A DNA stretch of 64,000 nt. It comes from Thuidium tamariscinum. Taxonomy: Eukaryota; Streptophyta; Bryopsida; Hypnales; Thuidiaceae. The translations under genes were made by a program, and so were the position numbers. The stretch covers positions 23,330,501-23,394,500 of the forward strand of contig OX344754.2 of assembly GCA_947034885.2 (NCBI GenBank), in the 5' to 3' direction. Shown in pieces: positions 15,748 through 59,972 of the stretch; position 1 is the first letter of the stretch; every line of letters begins with the position of its first letter. The notes below the pieces were generated by a model, which worked only from the letters and a program-made list of their open reading frames with translations, ran no database searches and had not been told where the DNA came from.

Positions 15748-16659
15748 CTAACTCTCAGGTGCAGCTGTCTCTTCACTGACTTCCTCCCCCTCTCCGTCTC
15801 CAACAATAAATTCAAATGGCGTCGAGGCGCCATACTGTTGTTCTAAGTACTCCACCGACGACTTAGTGAGGATCAATTTATCAGCCCTCAAGACATCATA
15901 GAGATTCAGACTCCGGGGCGTCAAGAGTTTAAACGTACTTACATTCCTGCTAGACTTCACGAGCGTCTCCGACGCGTTCAAGGAAAACAGCAAGGAGTTC
16001 TCCCCTTCTTTAATCCCCCATCTCTTCAACGCCGCAACAAACTCCTTCGTCTTCGGCACGGCGAATTGCTCATCAAGATCCTCCACGACGACGGTATTCA
16101 CAGAAGCCGACTGTAAGGCCGTACTAATGGCTAACCGCTTCTCCTTCTTATTGATCTTAATCGACCAATCCTTTGGTTTCGGACCAAACACCACTCCTCC
16201 CCCGGGACGAAGAGGAGTCCGAAGGGAGCCCTGGCGAGCTCTTCCCGTTCCTTTCTGCTTGTAAGGCTTGCGACCTCCGCCTCGCACCTCGCTTCTGGTC
16301 AATGTCGATGCCGTTCCCCTGCGACGATTCTGCAACTCGCAAATTACGCCTCGGTGCACAACAGACTTCGCGGTCTCAGGGCGAGCGGTCCTCAAATCCA
16401 AGTCGACCTCCCCCGCAGATTCCCCCTGGAACGTCAACACGGGCAGCGTCACGGCCATAGCCACCACCTTCTTCCCACGCGAGCTACATTGCAATTTCGT
16501 CGCGGTGGTGCGTTTGCCCAACGACGGCACCATCTTCAAACCTGAGAATGACACATTAGTGGCATTGTGGGATAGCGGCGAAGCGAAGGAAGAATTCGAC
16601 GAAGTCAGGGAGCACGCCACGCTCGCAGTCGCCGACGCCATAGCTCCGCAGCTTGGCAA
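15748..16659 (-). CDS. RPL4: Plastid 50S ribosomal protein L4 (uL4c), nuclear-encoded precursor
   Basis: Single-exon frame of 303 aa. Residues 1 to about 65 are Ser/Ala/Thr-rich with basic residues near the end, a chloroplast transit peptide; a second Met at residue 7 (MASATASVA) is an equally good start. The mature part begins near LPVLTFQGE (72-80). The basic extended loop of L4 that lines the peptide exit tunnel is plain: RGGGRKPYKQKGTGRARQGS at 126-145, followed by LRTPLRPGGGVVFGP. The globular part ends near DKLILTKSSVEYLEQQYG (260-277), after which comes an acidic tail typical of plastid L4 proteins. It assembles into the large subunit of the chloroplast ribosome by binding 23S rRNA. 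The length is close to the Arabidopsis plastid protein (about 280 aa). No intron is needed. Confidence 0.95.
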   Translation of the reverse strand: MPSCGAMASATASVACSLTSSNSSFASPLSHNATNVSFSGLKMVPSLGKRTTATKLQCSSRGKKVVAMAVTLPVLTFQGESAGEVDLDLRTARPETAKSVVHRGVICELQNRRRGTASTLTRSEVRGGGRKPYKQKGTGRARQGSLRTPLRPGGGVVFGPKPKDWSIKINKKEKRLAISTALQSASVNTVVVEDLDEQFAVPKTKEFVAALKRWGIKEGENSLLFSLNASETLVKSSRNVSTFKLLTPRSLNLYDVLRADKLILTKSSVEYLEQQYGASTPFEFIVGDGEGEEVSEETAAPES

Positions 16660-20341: not shown

Positions 20342-23300
20342 ATGGTGCAATTAGGGCGGTATGCAGCGCTTAGCGCTGCGAGTGCGTTGGCCATCATCTT
20401 TCATGCGTTTCGGAGTAGAGAGCAGTTCTACCCCGCAATGTTGTACCTGGCGACTTCGAAGATCAGCCTAGTTCTTCTTCTCAACATGGCGCTTGTGTTA
20501 ATGTGCATACTCTGGCAAGCAGTCAAGACTGTGTTCCTGGGAAGCTTGCGAGAGGCGGAGGTGGAGCGCTTGAATGAACAGTCGTGGCGTGAGGTTATGG
20601 AGATTCTGTTTGCAATGACGATTTTCAGGGAGGAATTCAATGTCACCTTTGTGGCGATGATCACTGTCCTTCTGTTCATCAAGGCTTTCCACTGGCTCTC
20701 ACAGAAGCGAGTGGAGTATATTGAAACCACCCCGTCTGTATCGAGGCTTTCTCATTTTCGAATAATCACGTTCATGGCACTCCTGCTAGCTCTCGATATT
20801 TTGTTTCTCCAGGTTTCGGTTGCGCACCTTCTGCGGACAAAAAAAGCATCAGTGTCTCTCTTCTTTGCATTTGAGTAAGTATCTAACTGTCTTTTGTTAT
20901 GGATGTGAATGTGGTTTCCCTTACATTTTTGACCTCATATTTACACTCTTAGCTGAGCCCTAAATCCGTGCTTGGCAGAAGAATTGCCAGAATACTTTTT
21001 CTGAATATCTGAATTACAGATTAATGATTCTATTGGAAACTGTTGCACATATGTTCTCCTGAATAGATCTTAAAGAGAACGAGGATTTTAGTAATGCATC
21101 AATCATCTGGAGACCATATATGATTACATAATAACGTTGGATTAAGGATTATCACAGGCGTTTCGGTCTCCTTAGTAGTGATATTACTATCCGCTACACG
21201 TATTGGTCAGGCATAGATGTCCATACACCAGATCAGAAAGTAAACTTTGGTGAAGCGAGTATGAGAGCATTCTTTGACGGAATTCTCCGTTTACGAGCTG
21301 CACTTTTTTGGCAGGTACATGATTTTGGCAACATCTACGGTAGCAACTTTTTTGAAATATGTACTATACGTGGGAGATATGGTGATGGAGGGACAGTGGG
21401 ACAATAAAGCTGTATACATCTTCTACCTTGAGCTTGTCCGAGACCTGCTGCACCTATCTCTATATTTGTTCTTCTTTCTTGTGATATTTATGTAAGTTAA
21501 CGCTATCCTTATGAAATGTTCGATCTGTGTTTTCTGGTGTTATACCTAGTTTGTTTTGTTTGATGTTAAGTTTTTCCATTTTTGGTGTCTTCGAAAGTTA
21601 TATATTTGAAATGCATGGAGTAGGGCCAATTCTCTCCTACGAATAATTGATCATGAATATTATTAGAAGTTACAATCCGCTGACTGGTTATTCATTATTT
21701 GGTAAATGATCATGGAAATATTGTTGTCAAAAGTTGTCTCTGCTTCTTAGTGAAAGGTTGGTTGATCCTAGAACACTTTTTATTGGTTTCTGGTTACATC
21801 CAAGCATTTTCATGACCCATATTATTCTCATATTGCTGCCGCTTGTTTGTGATTGTAGTCACTATGGACTTCCTCTGCACCTTGTACGGGAGCTTTACGA
21901 AACCTTTAGGAATTTCAAAGCTCGAGTTGCTGATTTCATAAGATACCGTAAGGTTACCTCCAATATGAACGATCGATTCCCTGATGCGACTGAGGAAGAA
22001 CTTGGACGGTATGGTTCCTGGTTTTGACTTCATGTTTGAAACCTTCTCATTCTGAATTTATGAACTTGGTTTCAATGCAAGTGATTCTCTGGAGGATGTT
22101 AGAAGTTGTGACTCTTTAGCTTACTGTATTCTTTGTTGTATTTCTTCAGCAATTTCTAGCACTAGGACCAAGAACAGGCACCTTTGTCGCTGTTCATTGC
22201 AGCAAGATCATCTTCGCTTTTACTGACTAATCCTGGATGAAATTGTGGTCTGTACAGTAGTGATGCGACTTGCATTATTTGTCGAGAGGAGATGTCTGCC
22301 GCTAAAAAACTACCATGTGGACACTTCTTTCATGTCCATTGTTTGCGATCCTGGCTTGAGCGGCAGCAAACTTGCCCCACGTGTCGAGCTCCTGTTTCTG
22401 CCTCTGAAACTCCTCCGCCAAGTGCGACGGAAGCTCCAGCCGCTCATCAGCACGGTCTTCAGCACGACCAGCCACCAGTCGAAGGTTTGTTAAAACATTG
22501 TTGCTGGTTTGATATGTCCATGTGCTATTTTGAGAGTAGCTATAGGATTGTTCTCCAACCAGAATAAGTTAGAAATCACTAATTTTGTCCGGTGCCGTAC
22601 CTGTTGTCATGATGCTTCATTTTTTCTGCATTCCACATACTTCGGAGAATTTCCTGCGTTAATTATCTTCAAACGTGATGTGCAGGACAAGGTGGCGTTC
22701 CTGAAAGGCCGGTACTTGTTCAATGGCCAGGAACTGGTCCATCTTTTTACATGCAACAGCTACCCTATATGCAAGCTGCTGTAGCTCCTAATAATCAGGC
22801 TCGCCCTGCAGCTACTGGTCATGCTTTGCAGCCTGGCGCTATGGCATGGTATGTCATTTCTCATTATTCCAGACACCTAGGCAATCGCGAGCATCTTGTA
22901 GCGCGTCTTTCTACTCAATGATAACAATGGCTTGGCAACACATGAAAGTCACATTTAGGGCTCAAATTCAGGAATGGATCAATAATTGTTTACTTGCAGA
23001 AAACGTTGCACAAGAATTCCTCGATTCATCCAGAGAACGTTCATAGTGTTCCTTGAACAACTCTGCGGTGTTGATTCGCTCGGAGACTTTGTGCAGACAA
23101 TGGATGTCTTAAAGCAGTCCACTTGCATTAGATTTCGCTTCATTTTCACATCTGAAAGTTCAGTTTAAGAGGTGTTTTTGGGTGACGATGCTTGCTGCAT
23201 ATTGTCACTTTCAGGTCCTAGTGTGCCAAATTATATGCTTATCGCAGTGCTGATTAGATTAACGACAGCAGTGTGAAAGTCAGAAGATTAATATTTTACA

Positions 23301-50479: not shown

Positions 50480-51683
50480 CTCAATTGGTCCTGGCCCAAT
50501 CTTCCATGTTGATTTATAAACGTTTATTCACTTTGGAAAAGGTCAGATTTACTTACATTCCTTGTAATTTGGCTCAATCCAAAACCGGTATGACACATTG
50601 AATTACAGAAGTTTATCAGCCTCGAGAAAGCTTAATAAGAGAGGTTCCACTGTACATGGAATGTGCAATTAGAGAGGGTTGAATGTTCCATCAAACCACA
50701 AAATCAACGACCAACTCTGCACCACATTTTGACCCATTTCACAAAACCGACAGCCATGTCAAAACAGGACACGTGCTAGCAAGGTAGGCCCCCACTCATC
50801 TGTGATTTTTTAACCTTTAAAACTTTTCCACAGATGACTGAATCCAAGGAAAAGCGCTTCCTTCAACACATTCAGTTCAGCTGGACGTCCGGAATCTGAA
50901 GGTACCCACCCAGTCAAAAAATCATGCCTGGAAAAGCTCCCATTCTGTGGGATCCAAGTCGGATTTTTGTCTACAATTCGGTATCTACTGTAGTGAAATC
51001 TTAAAATTTGTACGAATCCCTTGAAGAGAGAATCCCATGGACTATCAAAATTTGGAAGAGGACTGAGCATTGCTTGCACCTTTTTTTCTGTTTCGAAGCA
51101 GCTTCACAGGGCCTTGGTTCTTGGTAGAAAGCCATTGACAGACCGACTTCCAAATTCTGACAAGTTTGACGCTTTTGATTGAGGTGAAGCTTGTTTGTGA
51201 TGATTGCTATAGTGTTCAGGTACTAATTAGAAATTGGGTTTTGGATTTCCGGCGCTGGGATTCGAGTTCTGCAGTTTAGGATTTGCCAGGAGTTGATAGG
51301 AAGCAATTCTATTGAAACTAGCCATAGCCAAATCAGAATCAGACAGGGAAGAAATTCTTTCAAAGGTTCGTGGTAGCGGTTCTTGAAACCACACAAATTG
51401 CGTTCACGCCTTCGCAATGATCGACTTGCCTTTCAGTTTGTCATCCTCGGAATTAGTGAATGGTTTTGAATTTTTGTGAATTTGAAACCAAGGTTCTTTT
51501 TCTTTCGCTTCTCTTATAGTCTTTTGAGAGAAGAAAGGGATGATTGTCCGCTCCTGAGCTCATTTTTAAGGTTAGAATGGCCTCCAGGATTCTCAGTTCG
51601 TAGCCGCTGAAACATGGACTGCCTCTTTGTGAGGTGGCGGATTCCGTTTTGACATCGAGGGTTTCAAGACTGGCGATTTGATC
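50480..51683 (+). promoter_or_regulatory. Upstream region of the Kir-like channel gene
   Basis: Spans from the end of the TTAA element to the presumed channel start. The stretch from about 50690 has G+C near that of transcribed sequence, so it likely holds the promoter and 5' untranslated region. No TATA box was assigned. Stops occur in frame ahead of 51684. Confidence 0.35.
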
Positions 51684-54600
51684 ATGGCGTCAGGTAAGTT
51701 TTGTCGGAATTTTTAGAAATGTGAGGGAACCGGTGCATGAATGAGCTTTCTTTTGATAGGGTTATGAATTTGGAGGTGTAGCATGTTCAAGGTCTCCATC
51801 TTTCTAGCAGTTAAGTGAGAACTTGATCACTCTTCTCCATTGTCGATAGCAACTGCGAAATCAAAGTCCCAAATGTCTTACTAACATTTATGTGTATGTT
51901 TCTGGACAGCGAAGAAAACATTTGTAGCAGAGTGTGAGAATGTTGGACCTCGAGGAAAAGCCGCAATTAAAGCAGTGGAGGTATGAGTTAAAATTAGCCA
52001 AGATGGATCCCAAGGTTGTCATTGAAAATGGGGACTACAGTTTCTCAGGAATTGATGCGTCAAGCCTTGAATTGGAAGTTTAGAATTCATTTTATCGACT
52101 CTCATGCTCTAAAAATTCTTTGTGTTGTGTCTGTATTCTTGACTTGCAAGGGAACTTCCTTCCAGTGGTTAGTAATTTTATGTGAAGACAATGGATTGAT
52201 TCACATTAGTGGAGAGAATGAATCATGCTATGTTATGGGCAGGGAAGAGAGTATTCATTCAACTGGCTCGATCTAGTCATGAGATGCCTCAAAAATCATG
52301 CTGCTTTTCAAAGAAGTTTAGGATCAATTTGACCAACAAACCAGAAGTAGAAGAAGAAATTTTAACCGAAAGTTGATGGGTATGAATGCAGGTTTGCCAG
52401 AAGGAGAGTCTTCTAAGCAAAGCCTACGACATCTATATTTATGCTTTGAAGCTCCCTCTTTACATGTTCGTGCTCATAATATTTTCCAGTCCCGTTGTAT
52501 TGAGCGTCCTTTTCACAGGTGGGTTACTTACATCAATTTAGATGCCCTTTCAGGTCTATTGCTTGCCGATCCCAGTACTGCAAAAATGTTTAACACTTGT
52601 AGATTAGGGCATGTTAAGGAACTCAGTTAGTTCATGGAGCCCCGCCTTTGCCAAATGTTCTAGAATTTGGGTGCATTTGATGTGAACATCTATCAATGTT
52701 TGATAATCCTGCAATTTTTCTCATTTTCATGTCTATCTTTTTTTACTCATATTTCAATCAAAATTTGTATTTGAGCTAACAATTTTAATCCATATTGCAA
52801 CTCTCAGGGTTCTACTTGGTGGACATGGAAGGGCTCCACGTGCTCAAGGGAATAGATCCCTGGTGGGACGCTGGAGACGGACCAGGGTTTTTTGAGAAGA
52901 GCATTCGCATTTTCATCTTCAGTTTCTCCTTGTCGACAACTTTCGGAGGGGCGAAAATTGAGGCCATGTCGCCATATGCCTTACTTCTGGCCAATCTCAA
53001 TACGCTCCTTGCCCAGCTCATGTTTGTGTTCTTCAGTGGCGCAGGTATGATTGAGCCTCTAACTCCATTGTAAAATTCTTGATCTGCTTAAATTTTTTTC
53101 TTAAAAACATCTCTACTGTTTAAACAATTCTAATGAATCCCTTCGCTTTAGACTAATTGTTAGACCTCGCTAGTGAGGAGTTAGTGGACACTGTAAGCCA
53201 AATCTCTCCTAAAGAATACAAAGAGGTATATTTTCCAGCTTGGCACCAAAACCATATTTCAAATTCGGAAGGAGCACACTTACACAAGTAAAGTTTACCC
53301 AAATTACAAATGTAAGTACAGCCAAGTTAGACTTTACAATCTATTTGCAGTTGTAGGATGCTGGATTGATAGCTTGTGTTATATTTACCAAGGTTCGGGG
53401 AGATATTTGAGCCCAACCAGCTCATTTCCGTAGTAATTTAATACGAATCTATTTTTTTCCATTGATAATCTTTAGCTATTCACAGCAGTTTTACTTGAAA
53501 TAAAATAGAAAATTTTCTAAGATAGAGACAGGTTATTTGCCTGAAGTTTTGATTTTCAACCGACAATTGGGGCCGATGAACCAGCTCATAAATAATTCAC
53601 TATTTACCGATCCTCTCCATTCTTTGGTATTTCCATGCAGTGTTTCACCGGCTCTCTCAACCTGTGGAACCGGTGCGTTGGTCCATGGTGGCCCTCATCA
53701 CAGATGATCAATATGCAGAGGCCGAATCTCACCTTCCTGGACATGAAGCGCAGAAAACATACAAGTACAACTTCCTAACCCTTTCTCATGATTTTTCTTT
53801 CCAACAACTTGGTGTAGGAAGAGGCAAACTTCCATGTTGTGTCAGAATTTGAAATGAATTTTTGAGTTTCTTAAGAGTCATAGTCGCCTTTGTCAAGTTT
53901 TATTGATGCATTTTTCACTTCTATATGAGTAGGGAGAAACTACGTTGTAGGAACCTTGTTTTCAAACTAAAAGCAACCCAAACATTCAAGTTCAATCAAT
54001 ATAAGAATGGTTTTGTAGAAGTTGGAAACCTGCTTCCCTTGATTTCCATGAGCCACTTGCGGAAATTTTGTTGACCAACAATTCCCAGTTTCCTCTTGCA
54101 ACTTCTGCACATTTTTATGTAGAATTTTGATTTTCGGGGGTTCTTTTATGTAAAGTTTAACTGATTCGAGGTGCATAGAGTCTATTCAAAGTGGCAGTCC
54201 CTCCTAATTGAGTTCCATTTAGTTCCATGGTCTTCGCATTAGACTATGGTGGAAGAAAAGAAAGCACAATCCTTCTCTTTCAACTATGAATGTTTGTTCC
54301 TTTTGCACCTATTTTTAACCCCTAAGCGCCGCCGGCGCCAATTTTTGGCGTTCGGCAGGCTTCAGAGGGGCCCAATATGACTTGAACAGTAGTTTTTTCT
54401 CTTCATTTTATTTTAGTGACCTTTCATGTTGAGTTGTAAAGAGTCTCCAATTGAGTTTTTAGTTTAACTAATGTTTGTTTTTATGTAGTTGAGAAGTAAC
54501 TAGAGAAAACGGATGACAAAATTTGCCATTTTAGTGTATTTTGAGAAATTGACAAAATTTGAAATTTCTCCTTGAAAATGACATTTTCTGAGTTTGAGTC

Positions 54601-57581
54601 CAACTAATGAAATGAAGGTCCTCTACTCGAGTTTCTACTCCAATTGAAATTTTGTAAAAATTTGTTAAAATGAATATTTTATTGCAGTTTGCACTTTGGC
54701 TGTATTTTTAATGTCCATTACATTCTAATTATAGATGGACACGGTAAATTAGTTTACACCATAATGATTTTCACTGTAATTTTTGCACATGGTGAAATTT
54801 TCAGATTTTTTGAGATTATTTTCTATTTGATATGATTTTTTCTTCATTTTTACTTCAGAAAATTTCAGAAAATATAACTTTCCTTAAAAAAATCTGAAAT
54901 TTCTGTGAAGTACAGAGGACATGCAGTTTCATCTATGAAAAATAAAAATAAATTTTTTCATACGCATCTGATTACAAAATGGCAACTAACTGAGCGACAA
55001 AGAGTGCGGCCTGAAACCAGTGGTCATAGGCCCGGCGTTTCAGGGTTAAAGACATCTTGCTTTAGTGTTCATCCCAATTTTTCTTTGTGGGGCTAGCATA
55101 GCTGATGTTAACTTTGATGTTTAATGTTACATGATGCTTTTTTTTGCAGGTCATTTTTGATACGGCTGAACTTGGTGGACCCTAAGCAACTGATCATGAT
55201 AGAATGCCACTTTGAGCTTGTTTGTCAACGTTTTATAACTTTGCCTGACCACCCGGCCCCCTTCATTACTGGAGTGAGCTTGAAGCTTGTCCGACCCCAT
55301 GTCGCATATCTCAAGTATGGACTCATTATTCGCCATATAATTGACGAAAAGAGTCCTCTCTACAACATGGATGTTGAGGTACACCTTACTCTTAAACGTC
55401 TCAATCCTTTTTTGAATCTTTGCACATTTTGTTGATATCTTTGTATAGAAATATCATATACCAAAATTTCATGAAATTGGTCAATAAGGAAGGTTGTACA
55501 TACATCTTTTCAAGATTCAAGTTTTACATTAGATGAATGAGAAGTTAGTTGGACTAAATAACACTTGCAAAAACCTCTATTCATTGTCTAAAATGTGGAT
55601 GTTGGAATGTTTAAGGATAAACACATGTTTTTTTGGTTTCTTGAGGGTTTTTTACATGAATATGAATATGTTGGTTCATAAAACATCAAACATATTGCAA
55701 CATCTTTCAAATTATAGCAATATTATTTTTAATTCCTAAACTCTTTTTTTTCCAAAACCTATGGTCTTCCACATGTTCTTGTGAAAATTTATTTCATTGA
55801 AGTTGGAATTAGTTAGGGGCTTTCTAGTGAAATAGGTCATGATTTTTACTAAAGTAAGTACACCTAATTGCTACAATATTGCTAAGTTTGGTCCTAGAGA
55901 TTCTTACATAAAATGTACATTTGATTATGAAAGGCTAGGAATACCCATAATCAACATTAAGAAAAATCAATACTTTTATATGGTTTTCAAGAAAGATTTC
56001 CCTAAACAAATCTAGATTCTTCTTTCACCTGCCAATAAAAACCAATAAAACAAAGTCAAATTAATAATATTAATCATGGTCAAATGCTTCATCAAATGCT
56101 TGTAAGTTTGTACTTGAATATCCAATGAAGTGACACCCACATCTTGACAAGAAAGTTTTCATTCACATCACCTTCACATCTACTAAGGTAAACGATCCCA
56201 TTATAGACAAAATGAGAGCAAGCCTATTGTGGGCAAAATTATAATGGTGGTGTACATTTGAGAGCTTGAATGTACACCATCATTACAATCAGTATTTTTT
56301 TTCTAGCGATTTGGTACAAAATTGCACCAAATTTTTTGACTTGATACCAAGCCTACAGGAAAAAAAACAGTAAAATTTTGGATGAAATCACCAATGAACT
56401 TCAATTTGTTTTTAAATATTGAATGAAATCTCAAAAAAATGGATGAAAATCAAATGATAGATTTATATTGTGTGCTAATATAATATTTTTTATTCAATAT
56501 ATAGATGAATGTTGAGATTTGGAGCTCCACAATAAAATGAAATATCGCCACTTTGGCACTTTGTAAGAAATGAAAAAAAAAATTGATTACAATTTTACCC
56601 ATGATGGACTTGCTCCCATTCTGCTGATAATGGAGTAGTTTACCTTATATAAGGTACACCATGTCACAACCCTTGTCACAAACTCCAATCATAATATCTA
56701 TCTTGTTTTCATCCCAGAAAAATATCATCCAATTATATCCAATTATTTCATTTGATGTTCTCAATGAAAGCCCAAGAGTGCAACGAGTGAACATTCTAAG
56801 GTAGAAGGCTCTTAAATGGAGCGGGTTCTAAAATGGTGCCCTATCTTAAATGTACAGTACTTGTACATGTTGCTTTTTCATAGCCTTTAGCAGTGTACCG
56901 ATAGTGTACATTTTAGCTAGGGCACCATTTTAGAGCCCTATGTCCTTTCAACTTCAAAATTTGATATCTAATTCAAAAAAGCTCATAAAAATATGAAACG
57001 ACTTGGGTTAAATGTCAATTCTACTTGTCTTTCAAGGAAAATTTACTGAAAAATATTTTTAGAAGTTTTACCTCCCTGCAATTCTGTTTCAGCCCTTAGA
57101 TGGTCCATTATAGGACCTCTTACCTTACCTCAACACGAGTCCAAGTCATTGCAATTTTGAGTTGCTAATCTCCAATTATGCACACAATCTCCAAAACGGT
57201 GTCAGAGTTTGTTTCTCAATTTTCACGGTGCTCGACTGCCAGGCCATGATCCGTCAAGACGTGAGCTTTCTAGCCACCGTGTCGGCTCTGGAGAAGTCCT
57301 CGATGCAGCCCGTGTTCAGTGAGAGGGTGTACGCGGTGACGGATGGGGACATTGTGTGGGATCATCAATTCGACGACCAGGTGAGGACCGATGATTCAGG
57401 CCACCTGGTGTTTGATTTCAAGGCTCTCAACAAACTGAGACCCGTCACCAAAAAGAAAAACAATGGACATGGTGGTGGAGAGAAGGGACCTGAGGAAGGA
57501 TCGAAACCAAGGACGACGAAAAGCCAGGGGGGGAAATGGGGGAAACTGAAGCAGGCCGTTGTTTCGGGTGGCAGAGACTGA
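51684..57581 (+). CDS. Inward-rectifier (Kir/KirBac-type) channel-like protein with non-canonical pore filter, 7 exons
   Basis: Exons: 51684-51693, 51910-51980, 52392-52518, 52808-53044, 53641-53764, 55150-55378, 57243-57581. All introns are GT-AG, every phase closes, and the sum is 1137 nt (378 aa), near KirBac length plus a tail. Residues 33-66 match the slide helix and first membrane helix (YDIYIYALKLPLYMFVLIIF). Pore helix and filter lie at about 102-118, the second helix at 126-149, ending HRLSQP. The cytoplasmic Kir domain follows, with H252-I-I-D-E-K-S-P-L-Y261 and DIVWDHQFDD (302-311), blocks I recall from KirBac proteins. The filter reads T114-F-G-G-A118 where K+ channels have T-I/V-G-Y/F-G. 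The rectification-controlling acid of helix 2 aligns with N134. Residues 337-378 form a basic Gly/Lys-rich tail. Introns 5 and 6 are enlarged by transposons. The 10-nt first exon is the weakest part. Membrane location is expected; ion selectivity cannot be inferred. Confidence 0.83.
54315..55049. mobile_element. TTAA-bounded element, 735 bp, within channel intron 5
   Basis: Left end TTAACCCCTAAGCGCC at 54315; right end, reverse-complemented, TTAACCCTGAAACGCC from 55049. Internal blocks GTCCAACTAATGAAATGAAG and CCAATTGAAATTTTGTAAA are shared in order with 25107-25832. It sits 100 bases before the acceptor of exon 6, so the intron splices around it. The left end also has a GCGCCGCCGGCGC palindrome. 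Non-coding. Confidence 0.65.
56184..56647. mobile_element. Element with about 60-bp terminal inverted repeats in channel intron 6
   Basis: The left arm runs from TAAGGTAAAC at 56184 through CCCATTATAGACAAAATGAG and ends near AAAATTATAAT at 56243. The right arm (56585-56647) is its imperfect complement. A second inverted pair is nested just inside the left arm: GGTGGTGTACATT and AATGTACACCATC with a short loop at 56247-56282. The ends share TAAGGTA with the MITE family at 32070, which may mean related transposases. No clear target duplication. Confidence 0.7.
56823..56938. mobile_element. Small foldback (116 bp) in channel intron 6
   Basis: The left arm TCTAAAATGGTGCCCTA plus TTAAATGTACA and the right arm TGTACATTTTAGCTAGGGCA plus CCATTTTAGAGCC are imperfect complements of about 34 bases. 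The loop is about 48 bases and includes a second small palindrome GTACAGTACTTGTAC. Compatible with a MITE or a decayed element pair. Confidence 0.65.
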
Positions 57582-57992
57582 GGGGTACGAGCTTCGAGTC
57601 TCTGCAGAGCATTAATTTTGCACAGAATTGGAGGTGACAAATTGCAAGAAGCAGCTTCGGTAGCCTGTCTGTTTCGGGTTGCAGAGATTGAGGGTTACGA
57701 GCTTTGATTCTGTGCAGATCATTCGGCAAAGAATTGGAGGTAACAAATCACAAGAAGCAGCTTCGGAAGCCTGTCTATTTTGGGTTGCAGAGACTGAGGG
57801 ATACGAGCTTCGAGTCTGTGCAGATCGTCTTGAACAGAATTGGAGGTAACAAATTGCAAGAAGCAGCTTCGGCAGCCTGTTGTTTTGGGTTGCAGGGACT
57901 GAGGGTTACGAGCTTCGATTCTGTGCAGATAATTAATTTTGCAAAGAATTGGACAAATTGCAAGAAGCAGCTTCGGTAGCAGAGGTTTTGGG
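57561..57992 (+). repeat. Tandem repeat of about 106-115 bp, four units, starting inside the channel stop region
   Basis: Units begin GTTTCGGGTGGCAGAGACTG (57561), GTTTCGGGTTGCAGAGATTG (57671), ATTTTGGGTTGCAGAGACTG (57777) and GTTTTGGGTTGCAGGGACTG (57892); a fifth is cut off at 57985. Each ends with GCAAGAAGCAGCTTCGG or a close variant. The first unit contains the last codons and the TGA of the channel gene, and each later unit keeps a version of those codons and stop. The array therefore lies in the 3' untranslated region. Confidence 0.9.
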
Positions 57993-58086
57993 TCTATTGC
58001 ATAGTTTGTTTTTCGAGTACCGTCATTCTCAAACTTCCTTATACTCATGTAGCTTTTGTGTATGCAAGGCCCCTCCTCTTTGGGTC

Positions 58087-58362
58087 TAAGGTAGGTACAC
58101 CCAAAATGGCACCTGACCTTAAAGCGCCCTGTACAATGTGCATACATTTTCAAAATCAGTCTTGTATCCAGACTGTAGATGGTGCTTTCAGAAACACACT
58201 TTGACTGTTAATAACTTTTGCATACGGTATCCAAATCCTGTGTTCTTTGGTGCGTTGGAACATGCTTTCACTCACCAACAAGACTGTAAAAAATCTGAAC
58301 AACATATTAATAGGAACTAGGCACAGTATGAAAAACTGGCGCTTTTGGGTGTACCTACCTTA
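58087..58362. mobile_element. MITE, TAAGGTAGGTACACCC family, copy 2, with 3-bp target duplication
   Basis: 276 bp with ends TAAGGTAGGTACACCCAAAA and CTTTTGGGTGTACCTACCTTA (shown in two parts: CTTTTGGGTG, TACCTACCTTA). GTC flanks both sides (58084-58086 and 58363-58365), a likely 3-bp target duplication. Highly similar to 32070-32346 across the interior. Non-coding. Confidence 0.88.
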
Positions 58363-58730
58363 GTCCCAATAATTTGGAAGATTTGCCGTTTGAGGTCCAT
58401 GCAACCATAAATCAGTTGCTGTTTGGACCATTTTATGGAGGTCACATTATGGACCTTGAAGGGTTAATATGAATTGAGCTCTCTTGAATAGTAGTGGAAA
58501 TTGTAAAAAGAGATTTTCAAAGTTTTTGTTGAGAGTTTAGGGTAGAACCTCTCTCTTAGCACATGGTACCAAGATTATGCACTAAGAGAGGTTTGTGCAT
58601 TGAGAGTTGTAATAATGGTCATCCAACTTATGACAATTGTAACTACTCTACTTTAATATTCCAAATGCACAATCAATATACATTCAAGAATTGGATCAAT
58701 TGAATGAAATTCCAATGCACTTGCTATTGA

Positions 58731-59030
58731 TTGAATCCATCCATGTTGTCAATGTAGGGTGTGAATATTTAGGTACAATCTAGGTTGATAAGCAACATCC
58801 CCCAATTGAATTCATCCATGCTGCCAATTTAGGGTGTGAACATCTAAGGACAATCTAGGTTGATGAACAACATCGTCCAATTGAATTCATCCATGTTGCC
58901 AATGTAGGGTGTGAACATTTAAGAACAATTCAGGTTGATAAGTAACATCGTCCAATTGAATTCATCCATTTTGTCAATGTAGGGTGTAAACATCTAAGGA
59001 CAATTTAGATTAATAAGCAACATTCTCCAA
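58731..59030 (+). repeat. Tandem array, 4 units of exactly 75 bp
   Basis: Units start at 58731, 58806, 58881 and 58956, each beginning TTGAATCCATCCATG or TTGAATTCATCCAT and containing GTAGGGTGTGAA and AGGTTGAT. No indels between units; divergence is by substitution only. No coding frame runs through all units. Confidence 0.92.
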
Positions 59031-59107
59031 TAGAGCATATGGATTGAGTTGCCTTCTCAAACAATCCATACCTTAAGATAGGTAGTTTGTTTTATTTTGT
59101 TTTGTTT

Positions 59108-59771: not shown

Positions 59772-59972
59772 TCCATGTCAACCAATTATGTAGTCATTTT
59801 ATAGTCATGATATAGTCAAAGTTTTGTTAACATGAACATCCACGTCAACCAATTATGTAGTCATTTTATAGTTGTGATACAGTCAAAGTTTTGTTGACGT
59901 GGATGTCCACATCGGGCAAATATGTAGTCATTTTATAGTCGTGATATAGTCAAAGTTATTTTTCAGAGTCAC
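59772..59972 (+). repeat. Tandem array, 3 units of 67 bp
   Basis: Units start at 59772, 59839 and 59906, each with a TCCAYRTCAACC-like start (third unit changed), then TATGTAGTCATTTTATAGT and ATAGTCAAAGTT. Related words (GTCATTTTATAGT, AGTCATTGTAAAGTCATT) continue in decayed form to about 60080. Confidence 0.88.

Follow-up and report, generated by a model that had tools for sequence, protein, structure and literature searches.

A four-gene family of KirBac-type channel proteins with a reworked selectivity filter in a moss nuclear genome

Does the nuclear genome of a moss encode a channel of the Kir/KirBac type and, if so, would it be a K+ channel? The question is raised by a locus of Thuidium tamariscinum (assembly GCA_947034885.2, contig OX344754.2), where a 64,000-nucleotide stretch, hereafter the window, holds at positions 51684-57581 what a sequence-only reading had described as a spliced nuclear gene for a KirBac-like channel, a type with which plants are not usually described. 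The latter claim agrees with the excerpts of the published inventory consulted here, according to which TM-P-TM K+ channels are apparently lacking in Selaginella moellendorffii and Physcomitrella patens, with the S. moellendorffii inventory backed by a six-frame check for G-Y-G (PMC3410407). Among the papers listed by our searches of the open-access PMC library, none dealt, judged by title and the start of the abstract, with a Kir/KirBac-type channel in a bryophyte or a KirBac-type channel in another plant, which does not prove that no such report has been published.

The gene itself is confirmed as genuine. Seven exons splice to a product of 378 aa followed by a stop, each of the six introns runs GT...AG, and the exons were rebuilt where the sequence-only reading had placed them, with HIIDEKSPLY at residues 252-261 and DIVWDHQFDD at residues 302-311 as it had stated. 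Borders were assessed with a purpose-written spliced aligner that laid bacterial KirBac proteins against window positions 50501-58800, using ten Markov-resampled sequences and the reverse complement as controls. Four of the six bacterial proteins (L003, L004, L005, and L014) independently recovered internal borders, all four sharing 53044, 53641, 55378, and 57243, to which L003 and L014 added 52518 and L004 and L005 added 53764; their scores of 131-164 stood at 2.8-3.8 times the best resampled score (at most 53 for the ten resampled sequences and at most 46 for the reverse complement). The fifth protein, L041 (score 108), took a partly different path, as did the animal-type Kir6.2 (score 84), and the sixth, L070 (score 90), found the last two exons only, while P0001, a second Kir of this genome described below, did not rise above background when aligned to the window (45 versus a resampled maximum of 60). 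The three paralogues of the window protein, named C6b, C7, and C8 after their contigs, also return the same borders, for exons 3-7 in each case and, with C8 and C6b, for part of exon 2 as well; this support is not independent, since the window protein had guided the building of their models.

All seven exons lie on the forward strand. The 10-nt exon 1 (51684-51693) supplies the start codon, an ATG with the donor CAG/gtaagt, and is placed by sequence signals alone, as is the acceptor of exon 2 (51910-51980), which encodes the cytoplasmic N-terminus and whose 3′ part was picked up by C8 (starting at 51930) and C6b (starting at 51951); the intron that follows has its position and phase in common with C8 and C6b. 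Exon 3 (52392-52518) covers the slide helix and most of TM1, its 3′ part and donor being recovered by L003 and L014. Exon 4 (52808-53044), supported by the spliced alignment and the KirBac alignment, encodes the end of TM1, the turret, the pore helix, an altered filter, and most of TM2, and intron 3, which precedes it, is absent from all three paralogue models. The spliced alignment likewise supports exon 5 (53641-53764; end of TM2 and C-linker), flanked by introns whose positions and phases are common to the three paralogues (for C8 in the corrected model), exon 6 (55150-55378; first part of the Kir cytoplasmic domain, with HIIDEKSPLY), and, together with Pfam, exon 7 (57243-57581; second part of that domain, with DIVWDHQFDD, a basic tail, and the stop).

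Repeats accompany the gene. Intron 6, the intron examined for them, carries an element of ~331 bp (56797-57127, no strand assigned) with an internal inverted stretch and 39 further copies, 94-97% identical, among the 40 scored of 6508 candidates, i.e., a young high-copy repeat with at least 39 copies elsewhere; the earlier mention of local transposons in the introns thus stands for intron 6. Four 106-bp tandem copies (57560-57980) start in the last codons of the gene and continue through its 3′ flank, which places the stop codon and the last residues within the repeat, and further tandem arrays lie downstream at 58730-59031 (75 bp x 4.0) and 59772-59957 (67 bp x 2.8). Elsewhere in the window, a ribosomal protein L4 is encoded at 15748-16659 (reverse strand), its first 87 residues looking like a plastid transit extension by our reading, which points to a plant genome. 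Positions 20342-20878 (forward strand) encode the N-terminal portion of a synoviolin-like membrane E3 ligase.

To which family does the product belong? The profile check of the 378-aa protein was divided in its outcome. PF17655, the Kir cytoplasmic domain, matched residues 246-336 (E 4.7e-9, 36.6 bits against a cut-off of 22.5), and also C8 (34.4 bits) and C6b (26.2) above the cut-off and C7 (17.8) below it, whereas PF01007, the IRK transmembrane domain, gave no match even at E 1 in any of the four paralogues, the window protein included. PF07885, the ion-channel domain, likewise had no match at E 1 in the window protein. Profile-profile comparison of the transmembrane part (residues 38-158) of the four plant proteins with 75 bacterial KirBacs gave E 5.2e-10, against 0.025-0.53 for one reversed and eight column-shuffled controls; the whole proteins gave E 6.5e-34 over residues 35-357 and the cytoplasmic part alone 1.3e-23. 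Comparison with the bacterial proteins does recover a predicted two-helix pore, and of the "complete two-helix pore" claimed earlier, the architecture was borne out and the K+ filter was not, T-F-G-G-A standing in its place.

Other searches point to the same family. Each of the 44 distinct chains that a search of PDB sequences yielded at E <= 10 is called an inward rectifier, a Kir/KirBac, or simply a potassium channel; the best match of the window protein is 7swj (E 2.5e-6), which we take to be KirBac1.1, and KirBac3.1 follows at 5.9e-6 over residues 55-326. Two peptide patterns scanned through the genomes of 84,980 prokaryote species, one genome per species, returned 223 stretches, of which 201 were borne out as relatives (best E 9e-20, spanning residues 38-337); among the best 80 of these 201, best-segment identity was 21-26% and every frame carried the Kir motif. 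Five of the 80 were shorter than 280 aa (L025, L029, L035, L045, and L065) and were left out, giving the 75 bacterial rows of the alignment and tree. The window protein is 25-27% identical to KirBac versus 17-20% to animal-type Kirs.

It is at the filter that the plant proteins depart from this family. The ungapped alignment places T-F-G-G-A (residues 114-118; codons at 52939-52953, forward strand, from reading and alignment) on TxGYG, where 74 of the 75 bacterial rows carry G-Y/F-G (72 GYG and two GFG) and the remaining row, L019, reads I-N-Y-S; four of the five dropped rows have IGYG, and the frame of the fifth, L025, starts downstream of the filter. The four plant paralogues read TFGGA, TFGGA, SFGGT, and TFGGS: none has the K+ signature TxG(Y/F)G, and all keep F-G-G in a conserved block, S-L-x-T-x-F-G-G, at the signature's place. 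Bacterially fixed or nearly fixed columns that are changed in all four include T111->L, Y117->G, G118->A/A/T/S, P122->A, and E134->N. Its position within exon 4, clear of the exon borders, means that the altered filter is not a splicing artefact. A K+ channel of the usual sort is not supported, the filter being non-canonical in all four paralogues and PF01007 being matched by none. Residue 142 in TM2, which we take to be the usual TM2 blocker site, equivalent to Kir2.1 D172 and KirBac1.1 I138, is phenylalanine in all four. The weak point is the filter register, which is uncertain: one HMMER alignment, to Kir6.1, opens a gap and pairs F-G-G with the canonical G-F-G-G, so some of the filter chemistry may be retained, while the ungapped register holds against the 75 bacterial KirBacs, KirBac1.1, and KirBac3.1, none of the 75 rows being gapped in columns 112-120.

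The paralogues come from a search of the moss genome with the window protein. At E <= 10 it gave 19 matches at exon level, distributed over four genes: the window gene (six matches), C8 (C8:9305557-9307255, reverse strand; four), C6b (C6:9850800-9853604; four), and C7 (C7:13111425-13113310; five, three of them weak at E 0.25 to 3.7). Their models are spliced alignments guided by the window protein. The fifth intron of C8 was corrected by eye, and the corrected version served in the bacterial profile searches, while the identity and pN/pS values, alignment, tree, Pfam, profile-profile, and spliced-alignment results all carry the C8 model with the wrong fifth intron. Intron positions and phases are common to the window gene, C8, and C6b at alignment columns 28, 158, 199, and 276 (column 199 of C8 after correction), and C7 has only columns 158 and 199 of these. 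At the C7 locus (L104, ~1150-2000), a long, charged, low-complexity open stretch lies upstream and may be an alternative N-terminus or a neighbouring gene. Identity to the window protein is 40-51%, and C8 and C6b are 71% identical to each other. Across all six pairs, pN (0.17-0.42) lies far under pS (0.64-0.85); dN/dS is 0.13 for C8-C6b, and the other five pairs are saturated at synonymous sites and give no ratio.

Conservation among the four is uneven along the protein. Residues identical in all number 5/33 in the N-terminus and slide helix, 8/26 in TM1, 3/27 in the turret, 10/22 (45%) in the pore helix and filter, 20/31 in TM2, 10/74 in the first cytoplasmic part, 15/32 (47%) in the HxIDxxSP block, and 18/72 in the rest. 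The best-conserved piece is TM2, with pore helix and filter on a par with the HxIDxxSP block. Taken jointly (30/53), pore loop and TM2 are the best-conserved stretch, which favours a working pore and would argue against a purely silent subunit, though conservation could also mark a pore kept for assembly alone.

The same genome holds another Kir. Searched exon by exon with PF17655, it gave one match (C4:1447487-1447975), in a 526-codon open frame; the split window gene gives no signal in this search. The protein, P0001 (L001:955-2529, contig C4), has 524 aa in a single intronless open frame with the filter T-I-G-Y-G-G and a long C-terminal extension, and matches PF17655 at 1.3e-24, PF01007 at 3.5e-16, and, as best PDB hit, Kir6.2 at 6.5e-39. 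No second full copy was found in the genome, where a C-terminal piece lies on C10. Of the two, it is this gene, overlooked in the earlier note, to which the phrase "Kir in a plant" applies more literally. In a midpoint-rooted tree of 81 rows (75 bacterial, the four plant proteins, P0001, and Kir6.2 as the one animal sequence), P0001 and Kir6.2 form a 100/100 group apart from the four-gene family, which is itself united at 100/100, its stem 3.57 changes per column long; the letter composition of the window protein was flagged as deviant. No donor can be named because the branches are long. A cyanobacterial origin was sought and not seen, as the plant family is not nested in the 28-row cyanobacterial group, with placement in any case unsafe given the long stem.

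The plant type of filter was sought in bacteria as well. A profile of the four plant proteins (corrected C8) was run at E <= 1e-5 against genomes in the phyla of L041, L014, L005, and L003, centre genomes included, and matched 6/288, 80/329, 48/292, and 13/398 genomes, respectively (best E 3.2e-19). Filters were examined in 69 returned loci (L107-L175), five of them in the already-sampled genomes of L003, L005, L014, L019, and L041. A frame with the Kir motif was present in 62 of the 69 and missing in seven. Among the 62 frames, xxGYG was found in 48 by script and in eight more by eye, L111 (from the genome of L019) reads INYS, three (L120, L128, and L138) are evidently frames other than the channel's, and two (L125 and L146) start after the filter. 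None of the 57 judgeable loci among the 69 examined has a TFGG-type filter and 56 are canonical; L168 has F-G-G elsewhere in the protein and a filter that is canonical by script. The KirBac relative L019/L111, from an alphaproteobacterial MAG, with INYS in place of xxGYG, is possibly a further non-canonical bacterial Kir-domain channel. The viral contigs scanned held no relatives, and plasmids gave no match to the exon 7 peptide.

What, then, would such a protein do? Our best explanation, with a probability of roughly one half, is a four-gene eukaryotic subfamily of KirBac-type channels that probably conduct cations without K+ selectivity. The subfamily would descend from the KirBac/Kir lineage, whose slide helix, TM1, pore loop, TM2, and Kir cytoplasmic domain it appears to retain, and, judging from the family, its proteins would assemble as (homo)tetramers that still form a pore. 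Since the filter tyrosine and second glycine are missing, this pore may treat K+ no differently from other monovalent cations, like the pore of NirBac. The cytoplasmic domain would still gate it, probably by a lipid or another ligand, and rectification would be weak or none because of phenylalanine 142 at the usual TM2 blocker site. A plausible role is a ligand-gated leak or depolarising pathway, putatively in the plasma membrane or an endomembrane. The function suggested for the window channel, which is known here from its sequence, is an analogy with NirBac as described in print. At even odds too, we would regard the family as a class of Kir-domain channels that is eukaryotic, comprises several genes, and has a filter of its own, T/S-F-G-G-A/T/S. 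Such a class would have arisen within the plant lineage, from an ancestor resembling KirBac; its channels would be ligand-gated and non-K+, whether non-selective or with some other selectivity, and invisible to GYG-based inventories.

The main rival, appreciably less probable, is a non-conducting, channel-like subunit that has lost filter function and assembles with itself or with the canonical Kir of this genome as a regulator or receptor. It would account for the replacement of the filter tyrosine, second glycine, following proline, and pore-helix threonine in all four proteins, and the canonical Kir on contig C4 offers a possible partner; set against this, pore loop and TM2 are conserved rather than drifting, the same replacement is common to four members, and the sole canonical Kir found sits in a distant clade. 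That the channels are still K+-selective, with F-G-G a re-registered G-F-G through residues lost before it and gained after it, seems unlikely. The Kir6.1 alignment and the retention of F-G-G in all four speak for it, and the ungapped register against the bacterial KirBacs, KirBac1.1, and KirBac3.1, unbroken in columns 112-120, speaks against it.

Two further readings would deny the family its function or its host. A decaying pseudogene whose frame is open by coincidence might be suspected from the 10-nt exon 1 and the tandem repeat over the stop codon, and is very improbable given a frame and splice sites intact over seven exons, pN far under pS against every paralogue, and shared intron positions. 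Bacterial contamination or recent bacterial transfer, which we reject as scarcely credible, has in its favour the greater closeness to KirBac than to animal-type Kirs, yet that similarity is at background level only (best-segment identity just 21-26% in the best 80 of the 201 bacterial relatives), and the gene lies within a 29.1-Mb contig, with introns, a high-copy host repeat in intron 6, and spliced paralogues on three contigs, C6, C7, and C8. On this point the sequence-only reading was right, and its spliced nuclear gene of KirBac type is upheld by the Kir/KirBac ancestry, the introns, and the three spliced paralogues.

One moss genome combines a canonical animal-type Kir with a four-gene family of reworked filter, against a published inventory in which a moss and a lycophyte apparently lack TM-P-TM K+ channels; having a filter without G-Y-G, the family would escape a G-Y-G screen. 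Its members may be seen as natural K+-filter variants on an intact Kir scaffold under selection, and as test material for the roles of filter residues, and they raise the question of what use these plants make of the Kir cytoplasmic gate.

Among known systems, the KirBacs (KirBac1.1, KirBac3.1, and bacterial relatives) are homologous to the plant proteins across slide helix, TM1, pore loop, TM2, and the cytoplasmic Kir domain, have these elements in the same order, and share the motif H-x-I-D-x-x-S-P. The plant proteins differ in replacing, in all four paralogues, the filter, the pore-helix threonine, the proline after the filter, and the TM2 glutamate, and in their introns, their long stem, and an insert that follows the C-linker and measures ~15 residues, fewer in C7. 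Eukaryotic Kir6.2 and P0001 belong to the same superfamily with the same domain order, but at 17-20% identity, with filters of TIGYGG or TIGFGG and, in P0001, no introns. The one-pore plant channel KCO3 is sometimes called "Kir-like" (PMC8619664); in the excerpts consulted, one source derives it from TPK2 duplication with partial deletion (PMC3410407) and another argues for a different origin and gives its filter as GFGD (PMC8619664). Unlike KCO3/TPK, the window gene has PF17655, lacks PF07885, and carries TFGGA rather than GxG(D). The closest precedent, by description, is NirBac of Anaeromyxobacter and Gemmatimonas, a Kir/KirBac scaffold with a non-canonical filter. In the portions of the NirBac report available here, NirBac1.1 and NirBac1.2 are oligomeric and POPG-activated, have the entire loop replaced by non-canonical loops that are mutually dissimilar, and let Na+, K+, and Rb+ pass with little discrimination (little among monovalents in NirBac1.1, some in NirBac1.2), while NirBac2.1, with the loop TTGTD, is functionally uncharacterised there (PMC4607889). 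NirBac is bacterial, whereas in the moss one altered loop is conserved over four eukaryotic paralogues.
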